Below are positions 38,697-41,910 of a stretch of DNA of 64,000 bases, piece after piece. Both the position numbers and the translations under genes were made by a program. The stretch is from Oceanospirillum maris DSM 6286 (GTDB taxonomy: Bacteria; Pseudomonadota; Gammaproteobacteria; Pseudomonadales; Halomonadaceae). The notes under the pieces were generated by a model. That model saw nothing but the letters and a program-made list of their open reading frames with translations, was not told where the DNA came from and did no database searches. How positions within the stretch are numbered: the first letter of the stretch is position 1; every line of letters begins with the position of its first letter. The DNA lies in NCBI RefSeq assembly GCF_000422865.1, contig NZ_AUGW01000008.1:124001-188000 (forward strand), in the 5' to 3' direction.

Positions 38697-39617
38697 TTAG
38701 GCTTGTCCAAGCTGGCTTTGGCCGCCGAGCCATTCTGCTAAGGTGGGAATAAAGCGTTTTAACTCTAAAGACATTAGCGTGAAATCTGTATCCAGTCGTG
38801 TCATTGGGTCTTCGTCTGCATAGCTGTCCTTGGCTTCTTCTAGCAGATCATCACCAAAGCGTAGACGTTTTATTGTCAGGTCATCTTGTAAAATAAACTG
38901 AAGACGTTCTTGCCAGTCAAGTGCCAGTTTAACGACCTGCTTACCGGTTTCCAAATGAGCGAGAATCTCTTCTGCATCCACTTCCTGTTGCTTGCAGCGA
39001 ATAACGCTACCTTCTTCTAAGTCAGAGCGTAGCTCACACTGACCATCAAGCTCTAAACCCTGTGGTCGAGTGTCAGCATTTTGTAACCATTGGGTCATTA
39101 CAATACTAGGGCTTTGCTCGGTATTAAAAGGTACGACGGGGAGTGAGCCGATGGTTTGTCGCAGTAAATCTAAAAATTCGTCGGCTTTTTTGCTGCTAGA
39201 CGCATCGATAACCACCATGTTTTCTGTAGGGGCGATATAGCCCCAGGTAAAGCTTGAGCGAACAAATGCGCGGGGGGTTAGCTCGCTTAGAATATCTTCT
39301 TTGATGGTGAGTTTTTCTTTTCGACCAACATAGCGGTTTTCTTTGGCTTCTAATTCTTCGACGCGTTCTTTTAACGTTTCATTAACAACGGCGGCAGGGA
39401 TCACTTTTTCCTGACGGCGCAGGCATAACAAAATTGCACCACCACTAATATGGCATAACTGACTTGCTGTTGGTGCTGGCAAGCTCCAGCCCAAGCGATA
39501 GGTCTCTATACTTTTGCAGGGCTCAAACTTGAATGCTTCTAGTTGAGATTCTAGCTGGCCTGCATCGAGTTCAAGGTCTTTGTTTAATTGAAACAGTTGA
39601 AGATTCTTAAACCACAT
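38697..39617 (-). CDS. rdgC: RdgC, recombination-associated ring DNA-binding protein
   Basis: RdgC forms a dimeric ring on double-stranded DNA and restrains RecA. The N terminus (MWFKNLQLFQLNKDL) and the motif LTPRAFVRSSFTWGYI are family hallmarks, and the 306-aa length matches (Escherichia 303). ATG 39617 has GGAG upstream; the frame extends to 39719 without family support. It is transcribed away from the Pho-box chemoreceptor. Confidence 0.94.
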   Translation of the reverse strand: MWFKNLQLFQLNKDLELDAGQLESQLEAFKFEPCKSIETYRLGWSLPAPTASQLCHISGGAILLCLRRQEKVIPAAVVNETLKERVEELEAKENRYVGRKEKLTIKEDILSELTPRAFVRSSFTWGYIAPTENMVVIDASSSKKADEFLDLLRQTIGSLPVVPFNTEQSPSIVMTQWLQNADTRPQGLELDGQCELRSDLEEGSVIRCKQQEVDAEEILAHLETGKQVVKLALDWQERLQFILQDDLTIKRLRFGDDLLEEAKDSYADEDPMTRLDTDFTLMSLELKRFIPTLAEWLGGQSQLGQA

Positions 39618-39787
39618 ACCGTAAGACTCCATCAATTCGGGGCGCGACATTATCCAACAAAGGTCTTTCATAGGCCAGAGAATACAGGGTTTAATCCGGT
39701 AAATTACAGTTTGTAACAAAATTGTAAAAAAGCGGCAAAAGTGGAAAAGCTTGATGAACGCTATGGTTGAGTTGAATCAATAACTGT

Positions 39788-39830
39788 TGTCATATTTCTG
39801 TCATGCAACTGTCAGAAATATGTCATTTGG
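39788..39830 (+). promoter_or_regulatory. Tandem Pho box (four TGTCA elements at 11-bp spacing)
   Basis: TGTCA occurs at 39788, 39799, 39810 and 39821, each exactly 11 bp apart. The central pair reads CTGTCATGCAACTGTCAG, a near-consensus Pho box, and the outer pair extends it to two abutting 22-bp boxes. The direct repeats are oriented toward the chemoreceptor gene that starts 77 bp downstream. PhoB binding is the expected role. Confidence 0.78.
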
Positions 39831-39906
39831 GTTTGGCAAGGTGTGCGGAAAATACAACACATCGATATTGAAAGCTAAGTAAGAAAATTAGCGAGACAAA
39901 GGCTAA

Positions 39907-41910
39907 ATGTCCATGAAAATTGCTACGGTCACACGGGCAACCTCTATTGTTTTGGTTTTGATTGCCGTTTCTTTGGCAGCTACGCTGCTTTGGGGATTAA
40001 AGCGTTTGGATAATGCTTTTTCTGCAACTCAATCTTATTCACAACTCAAGGAAGAGGTCACCATTGATCTAAGGCGTAAGGTGCAAGAATATCTTGCCAC
40101 TGGCAATGCCTTAAAGCTCAGTGAAGCGGAGCAAGATATTGATCGCCTTGTGAGTGGCAGTCTTCATCAGTTGCCGCCGCTATTAGCCGCCGAAATTGAA
40201 AATTCCCTGAATGAATTAAAGCAGGGAGTAACGGTTAAATTTCGTGCGGCAGGTAAGCTGGCAGGTAATCAAAAAGGACTTTTGTTGCAGTCTGAAAAAG
40301 AGATCGCTAATGCTGCTGATGCTCTTTATGACTATATTCAACAAGGACAGTCCCAGCAAGGACAAGCCGATGATTTAGGACTGGGTGCGGATTACTTATT
40401 TGCCTTACATCCTATTGTTCTGGGTATTAGCCAGATTAAATATTTGAGAGAGCAGTTTAACGATACTCAGGATAAGCATCATAGGGTCTTGCTGTTGGCG
40501 GAGATTGATCAATTGCAAGCTAAGGCTGAGGCGCTCAAAGAGCTGCCTCGCTTTAGGCTTTATGAGGAAGAAGAAGTTGATGAAATGGCCGCTCTTATGG
40601 GTTGGTCAGGTGAGTCGTATGGTGCGAAAAAGCAAGAGCAGGGAGATCTGCTGATTGGTGAGTTGAACGATCTTTTACGTCGTTATCCTGCTGAGCTTGA
40701 GAATATGCTTCGGGATACTCTACTGGGCGTTGAAAGTCGTAGGGCAGTGAATCAACTGATTGGCAATCTTGAGCAGTTGATTAAAGACGGGCAGAAGACG
40801 GTTTTGGTACATAAAGATCAGGTTGAGCAGCAGGTCACGACCATCTTTATTGGCTATGTCGTTTTGATTGTTATTGTCGCCTTGGTGTTGCACCTGTTTC
40901 AAAGCCGTGTGGTATTAAAAGCGTTGCGTGAACTCTCTAACGGCATTGGAAGCTTAATCGAAAGTGGTGAGATGCGATTGATTGCCGTGCATAGCTCCGA
41001 TAGTGAAACAGGGCAAATTGCCCAGAGTTTTAATCAGATGATTGAAACAATGCAGCATCAGCAGCAAGAAAAACACGCTCAACTGACACAAATTACGGAT
41101 TCCCTAGAAGTGGTGTTAAGCGATATTGATACTATTAGTAAAACCGCTAATGAGACCCGTAATTATATTTCTAAATCCCACAGCTTTACTGATGAGCTAA
41201 CACGGCTGGCCCAAGATGTGGATGCTAGCTCGACACAGGTTGAAAGCTTTGCCCGTGGCACGGCAAGCTTTATGGAAGAGAGCCAGTTAAGCGCCAGGAA
41301 TGTTGAGCGTTCCAGCGAGCAAGCTATTGCTACACTCAGTAGCGGCCATGAATCCTTGGATGACTTGATTGCGGCCGTGGACGAAGTTACCAGTATTTTG
41401 GATGTGATTAATGGTATTTCTGACCAAACCAATCTACTAGCCTTAAATGCAGCGATTGAAGCCGCTCGGGCTGGTGAACATGGTCGGGGTTTTGCCGTGG
41501 TAGCCGATGAGGTGCGTAACTTATCGATGGAAACGCAGAACTCTGTGACTAAAATTGGCAGCATACTGAGTCAGTTGAGGCACTCGTCGAATAACTTAAA
41601 AAGCAATATGACGGATATTTCCTGTGCAGCAGAGGAGCAAAGGGAAGCCTCTAGCTATCTGTTAGAGATGTCAAAAACCGTACAGGGGCATTCTGATCGT
41701 GCGGCAGAGTTTGCCCATCAAGGTGCCAAAGTCGCCCGTAATCAAGTCGGGCAGGTTGAGGTCTTTATTGCCAGTATGGAAGAGATGGAGCGTCAGGCCG
41801 CGCAAGCAGAGGATGTTATTCTTTCGGTACAAACGGAAGTACACGAGAAGGTCTTGTGGATATCCAACGCTTTGGGTGTTTCCCGTAGCAGGAAAGAACT
41901 CTTGCTTTGA
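39907..41910 (+). CDS. Methyl-accepting chemoreceptor, candidate phosphate-starvation receptor
   Basis: The 667-aa protein has TM1 (about residues 9-29), a largely helical ~285-residue periplasmic domain, TM2 (about 318-338), a HAMP region and the signalling hairpin tip ([19 protein letters not shown]). The long helical sensor resembles helical-bimodular types rather than a Cache domain. No C-terminal NWETF-like tether is present. Because of the tandem Pho box, I infer induction at low phosphate; CtpL of Pseudomonas aeruginosa is a known PhoB-linked phosphate receptor. The ligand itself is unproven. Confidence 0.88.

Follow-up and report, generated by a model that had tools for sequence, protein, structure and literature searches.

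A predicted PhoB-activated promoter upstream of a CtpL-type chemoreceptor gene in Oceanospirillum maris

Which regulator reads a run of four TGTCA elements in front of a chemoreceptor gene of Oceanospirillum maris, and what would the receptor under its control sense? A sequence-only reading of the locus had proposed two abutting PhoB boxes driving a phosphate-starvation-induced receptor. We followed up this proposal in the window (the whole 64-kb stretch of DNA that was analysed), in the remainder of the genome, and among homologues of the receptor.

A tandem TGTCA array and its promoter layout

Four copies of TGTCA can be read directly from the sequence, starting at 39788, 39799, 39810 and 39821. 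All four are exact and follow one another in steps of 11 bp, precisely as originally described, on the same strand as the chemoreceptor ORF at 39907, towards which the array points. We annotate them as predicted PhoB half-sites on the forward strand: half-sites 1 (39788-39792) and 2 (39799-39803) would constitute an upstream Pho box, half-site 3 (39810-39814) would belong to a promoter-proximal Pho box, and half-site 4 (39821-39825) occupies the place of a -35 element. The inner pair had been singled out as a close fit to the consensus, which it is, with one mismatch to the 16-mer TGTCATANANCTGTCA for the pair at 39799, but it does not surpass the first pair at 39788, which likewise has one; the pair at 39810 has two.

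Downstream of the array we predict an extended -10 element (39834-39842, forward strand) composed of TG at 39834-39835, one further base and the hexamer CAAGGT at 39837-39842, whose first base lies 16 bases after that of half-site 4 (an offset termed +16 below). CAAGGT agrees with TATAAT at only two of six positions, A2 and T6, and is a poor -10. General promoter geometry would put the transcription start about 7 bases past the -10, at 39847-39851 on the forward strand, and a putative ribosome binding site, AAGG, lies at 39899-39902 (forward strand) within AAGGCT (39899-39904). Two other promoter classes were rejected by eye against their consensus sequences, namely a FliA-type promoter and a sigma-54 promoter, for which the GG and GC of the conserved TTTGGCAnnGTG block are too close together, at most 10 apart in the sequences checked instead of 12. 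To the left of the array rdgC (38697-39650, reverse strand) is divergent and has the intergenic region in common with the receptor gene, whose right-hand neighbour reads as gyrA, recognised by eye.

The four-unit pattern has a single exact match in the window and is absent from 100 dinucleotide shuffles of the window even when three mismatches are allowed. In the whole genome (3,708,601 bases in 43 contigs) the array is again the sole exact match; the five remaining matches differ from the pattern at 2 or 3 positions and include the array itself shifted by one unit, and the reversed pattern, used as a control, gave no match in the genome. Equally good four-repeat matches, which the sequence-only reading had suggested looking for at unrelated loci, are therefore not found in this genome, the next best having 2 mismatches. 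A single pair behaves quite differently: TGTCATANANCTGTCA with up to 3 mismatches has 241 matches in the genome versus 246 for its reversed control, so that a single Pho-box pair is uninformative on its own. The frequency of such pairs is what could be said for the idea that the TGTCA run arose by chance and is without function; set against four exact units that are unique in the genome and never arise in window shuffles, as well as the conservation described below, we give this idea almost no credence.

Furthermore, we scored the four-unit array in front of the 54 genes of the genome that carry an MCP signalling domain (E up to 1e-8). The window receptor reaches 20 of 20, and the other 53 genes reach 9-15. 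A count of 54 MCP signalling domain places in a 3.7-Mb genome amounts to an unusually large chemoreceptor set. Elsewhere in the genome, at G000:C1:178377 (L060:3378-3415), the units TGTCG, TGTCA, TGTCG and TGTCG follow one another at 11 bp upstream of a 96-aa ORF that starts at L060:3502.

Conservation of the promoter within and beyond Oceanospirillum

The receptor is present in all five congeners examined, and alignment of the six upstream regions revealed a small number of invariant blocks amid diverged DNA. These are TGTCAT at half-site 2, TGTCATTT at half-site 4, TTTGGCAnnGT at the extended -10 (invariant block 39832-39842) and AAGGCT at the ribosome binding site. The five congeners have a degenerate half-site 1 and a variable half-site 3, which reads TGTAA in two of them and TGAAA, TGACA and TGTCA in the others; all four units are exact only in O. 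maris, and the congener with TGAAA (G002) has no 11-bp pair by a rule asking for four of five matching bases. The -10 hexamer is CAAGGT, CATCGT or CATTGT across the six species. Two units and a -10 block that stay invariant while the DNA around them diverges speak strongly against a chance origin of the array.

To look beyond the genus we collected homologues of the sensor domain, which occur in 12 of 58 genomes of relatives and in 7 of 369 genomes from an even draw across the class (both counts include O. maris), and added the best 80 of at least 422 from named genomes. Of the 99 upstream regions collected, 95 were distinct and 49 were left after similar ones had been dropped. With a pair defined as two TGTCA-like words, each matching at 4 or more of 5 positions, 25 of the 49 regions contain a pair at a spacing of 11 bp and 10 contain one at 22 bp, compared with 0-6 regions at the other spacings from 6 to 25 and about 2 (maximum 7) in shuffles. 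The related words TGACA (17 of 49) and ACTGT (11 of 49) also peak at 11 bp because they are near neighbours of the repeated word. Control regions upstream of other genes have an 11-bp pair in 10 of 137 cases versus the 25 of 49 for the homologues (Fisher p 4e-10), the controls being taken from 33 of the 49 loci, upstream of mechanically called ORFs of at least 150 aa, and not being de-replicated. Four of the ten control matches come from four Marinospirillum-type loci (L072, L073, L075 and L083), in each case upstream of an ORF of about 600 aa in a corresponding position near 2150; the receptor itself has no pair in these loci, and none of the ten is at a receptor.

The position of the -10 is equally regular. 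When the last half-site was picked blind to the -10, a hexamer with A2 and T6 stood at +16 in 20 of 24 regions, the count being 0-5 of 24 for each of the other offsets between 6 and 31; under a looser pair rule, a pair with a -10 at +16 is present in 32 of 49 regions, whereas the 15 other offsets tried gave 0-5. In the remaining 24 of 49 homologue regions the 4-of-5 rule finds no 11-bp pair. They include congener G002, Allopseudospirillum, ten pseudomonads, Aeromonas tecta and the four Marinospirillum-type loci. Some of these have a more degenerate box, and the link between this sensor and a Pho-type promoter is thus common, not universal.

Phosphate genes of the genome and the probable regulator

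The O. maris genome contains one protein above the curated PhoB cut-off (356.2 bits versus 296.2), and its gene is near phoR and the pstSCAB-phoU genes; PstS is encoded and scores above its family cut-off, and PhoR, PstC, PstA, PstB and PhoU were named by eye from their translations. In this genome the hexamers at +16 are TATAGT for pstS, TATTTT for pstC and TGTAAT for phoB, and in all six Oceanospirillum species pstS has TATAGT or TATATT and pstC TATTTT or TACTTT at +16, in a scan that also scored the hexamer and in which the offset was assumed. In E. coli K-12, the phoA promoter has two units and TATAGT at +16, the same offset as in the window, and the pstS promoter resembles the window in having four 11-bp units, of which the third is degenerate, and TATTTT at +16. 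The window promoter differs from both in that all its units are exact, in that its -10 is far from the consensus and carries a TG extension, and in its target, a chemoreceptor.

These promoters bear directly on whether the array could be bound by a different OmpR-family regulator, unrelated to phosphate. Reading of tandem repeats is common in the OmpR family, many members of which recognise such sites, and at least 8 PhoB-like regulators of this genome match nearly the whole PhoB model. Nevertheless, the layout of TGTCA units, 11-bp step and +16 offset recurs before pstS and pstC in six species, before the organism's own phoB and before E. coli phoA and pstS, and the Pseudomonas homologue of the receptor, CtpL, is reported to depend on PhoB: in the data given for P. 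putida BIRD-1, CtpL has a fold change of 4.95 in the low-Pi wild type and is listed as ND in the phoBR mutant, and it is tabulated among the proteins silenced in that mutant (PMC5082522), while ctpL appears among PhoB-regulated transcripts of P. aeruginosa (PMC12186492). We therefore regard a regulator other than PhoB as very improbable.

Candidate Pho sites elsewhere in the genome were sought with the pair and -10 geometry. Allowing up to 2 mismatches, this geometry has 96 genome sites versus 70 in the reversed control, so that most two-mismatch sites are due to chance and the geometry alone is no reliable detector. The downstream gene was checked at 13 of the 18 exact or one-mismatch sites, and several of these genes have no phosphate link (a Rieske protein, a porin and an enoyl reductase); further exact or one-mismatch sites fall within an ORF. 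In keeping with a phosphate-starvation regulon, such sites are also located upstream of phnS2, OlsF and a Ppx/GppA-family gene. The site at G000:C3:93116-93159 (L163) has three TGTCA-like units, the first being TGTCT, and a -10 at +16, and the start of phnS2, encoding a 2-aminoethylphosphonate-binding protein, is 295 bases beyond it; judged by this site, phnS2 is likely a member of the Pho regulon. A one-mismatch Pho-type site at G000:C9:49470-49502 (reverse strand; L179) lies upstream of OlsF, an ornithine lipid synthase, and would fit the replacement of phospholipids under low phosphate.

A second chemoreceptor gene, of the dCache type, has a weaker Pho-like site 207 bases upstream (G000:C1:461523-461555; L169, L250). 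Support from its homologues in four congeners is mixed: one (L283) carries a 5+4 pair but no -10 that fits, another (L284) a 4+4 pair with TATGTT, and upstream of the other two no pair reaches 4+4.

The proposal that the array in the window is a tandem Pho box is thus supported by several comparisons: the array is unique in the genome and shares its motif and -10 offset with the organism's own pst promoters, five of five congeners retain the -10 block together with units 2 and 4, the homologues display an 11-bp spacing peak with a -10 at +16, and the array score is far above that of the 53 other MCP-domain genes. While the repeats, their geometry, their conservation and the PhoB and PstS genes are observed, we infer PhoB binding and induction of the promoter from them.

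The receptor, its likely ligand and a possible tuning of its promoter

The gene downstream of the array encodes a CtpL-type methyl-accepting chemotaxis receptor of 665 aa (39913-41910, forward strand). The chemoreceptor gene reported at 39907 is real, but its start is probably 39913 because this is the ATG whose counterpart is present in all five congeners; starting at the alternative 39907, the protein would have 667 aa. All further features are on the forward strand, and the receptor has the layout of a TM helix, a helical sensor, a second TM helix, a weak HAMP domain and an MCP signalling domain. The periplasmic all-helical sensor spans about 278 residues between the two TM helices (40003-40836, limits set by eye) and carries the signature AGKLAG, the C-terminal half of a HAMP domain lies at 40975-41055 (21.8 bits, under the Pfam cut-off of 25), and the MCP signalling domain PF00015 at 41281-41766 (E 9.1e-30).

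The sensor itself has no match to any Pfam sensor family at E up to 1, the receptor protein passes no NCBIfam cut-off, a PDB sequence search returned nothing significant, and a first scan of the genome contigs with the single sensor sequence found no relative. Among 47 homologues the invariant core consists of AGKL (residues 113-116), L123, E128, R179, R257 and E261 (numbered from 39913), and a conserved, mostly loop stretch covers residues 209-242. An AlphaFold2 model of the sensor is all-helical (pLDDT 92.8, pTM 0.76), and its nearest solved fold is that of McpS (Z 15.0, rmsd 3.2, 227 aligned; top Foldseek match, E 4.5e-4), followed by TorS, solved with TorT (Z 13.6, rmsd 4.7, 236 aligned), and PilJ (Z 12.9, rmsd 5.6, 228 aligned), all at 8-14% identity. 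Similar scores are obtained for TTYH channels (Z 14.0, 207 aligned, rmsd 5.7) and for designed four-helix proteins (Z 14.6, 129 aligned); an McpS-like fold is thus likely, not certain, and the sensor is not filed in the helical bimodular (McpS-type) family since it has no Pfam sensor match.

The sensor is a distant homologue of that of Pseudomonas CtpL, a receptor which the sequence-only reading had brought up. A search of the genome with the sensor of a P. putida CtpL-type homologue (L090), used in place of the P. aeruginosa CtpL sequence, found only the window receptor (E 3.6e-31), the next match having E 0.117 and lying in a broken frame, and in the reverse direction a search with the Oceanospirillum sensor family reaches the Pseudomonas homologues. 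In two Pseudomonas loci (L087, L090) the homologue is located between a REC-GGDEF gene and dsbD, with aroQ next in L090; the dsbD-aroQ order is presumably that of P. aeruginosa as well. In P. aeruginosa, CtpL is listed as PA4844 (PMC9864684) and the diguanylate cyclase gene gcbA as PA4843 (PMC5462983). As the homologues adjoin a gcbA-type gene in the two loci examined, we identify them as ctpL, and the reciprocal match and this gene order together corroborate the CtpL link.

Like the window receptor, CtpL (PA4844; PPUBIRD1_0612 in P. putida BIRD-1) has a homologous helical sensor with AGKLAG, and the homologues share the TM-sensor-TM-MCP layout in about 640-670 aa, many of their loci having a Pho-type promoter with a -10 at +16. 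The sensor is 26-31% identical to its Pseudomonas homologues, the gene order differs (rdgC and gyrA here, dsbD and a gene of the gcbA type at both Pseudomonas loci examined), and in the Pseudomonas promoters the units are more degenerate and the -10s read, for example, TAACTT or TAAATT, in contrast to the exact units and poor extended -10 found here. The sequence-only reading had mentioned CtpH as well, which is also a phosphate chemoreceptor of P. aeruginosa but which the description in PMC4926252 sets apart, with a different sensor that binds Pi directly and lacks significant similarity to CtpL. Among the open-access papers searched, none joins 'Pho box' with ctpL or PA4844, and the single one that mentions Oceanospirillum, chemoreceptor and phosphate together deals, according to its abstract, with a hypochlorous-acid sensor.

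Both sensing of Pi through PstS and direct sensing had been left open for the window receptor. According to the experiments described in PMC4926252, the CtpL sensor did not bind Pi in calorimetry, pulled down PstS, and formed a 1:1 complex with Pi-loaded PstS (KD 3.7 uM). Recognition of PstS is therefore likelier than direct recognition of Pi. TorS, a fold neighbour, is a sensor whose structure titles name a complex with the periplasmic protein TorT. It is conceivable that the promoter is under PhoB control while the sensor directly binds phosphate, another anion or a phosphorus compound, given that charged residues are conserved in the sensor (K115, E128, E130, R179, R257 and E261), that McpS was solved with small molecules bound and that CtpL is also listed for chloroaniline and catechol (PMC9864684); weighed against the behaviour of the CtpL sensor, we consider direct binding unlikely.

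Taken together, a PhoB-activated promoter very probably drives a CtpL-family phosphate chemoreceptor at this locus. On the molecular level, PhoR would phosphorylate PhoB when phosphate is scarce, and two adjacent PhoB dimers would occupy the four 11-bp repeats. The dimer closer to the gene would stand in for a -35 box and bring sigma-70 RNA polymerase to the weak extended -10. The receptor would then enter the inner membrane, where its helical periplasmic domain may recognise phosphate-loaded PstS, itself the product of a gene with a promoter of the same type, and the MCP domain would signal to the flagellar motor so that starved cells swim toward phosphate. Homology and predicted fold are observed for the receptor, and on these grounds PstS as ligand and phosphate taxis are inferred for O. 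maris.

Comparison of the receptor and pstS promoters allows a further, tentative suggestion. In six Oceanospirillum species the receptor promoters have two to four good PhoB half-sites and a conserved poor -10, whereas pstS in the same species has a weaker Pho box (3 of 5 in the first unit) and a near-consensus -10, and the two may be tuned in opposite directions, although we consider this rather unlikely. Since pstC has an exact pair together with a good -10, the contrast is limited to pstS. A strong operator might be combined with a weak -10 because the cell requires only a small number of receptor molecules, the ratio of PstS to CtpL in P. aeruginosa being about 4000 to 1 (3848:1 and 4240:1; PMC9864684). 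If the suggestion is correct, the receptor would respond at the lowest level of PhoB-P but be made in few copies, and a starving cell would start to seek phosphate before, or more sharply than, it starts to bind it. With this contrasting promoter pair one could examine how PhoB affinity and the quality of the -10 determine the order and level of the starvation response.

A PhoB-controlled phosphate chemoreceptor system is already known, and what is new, and well supported, is the Oceanospirillum example. With it, PhoB-controlled, probably PstS-coupled phosphate taxis would reach beyond Pseudomonas into a marine spirillum. Several families combine this sensor type with a Pho promoter, even though their proteins are only about 30% identical, and an unannotated sensor family gains a likely ligand.
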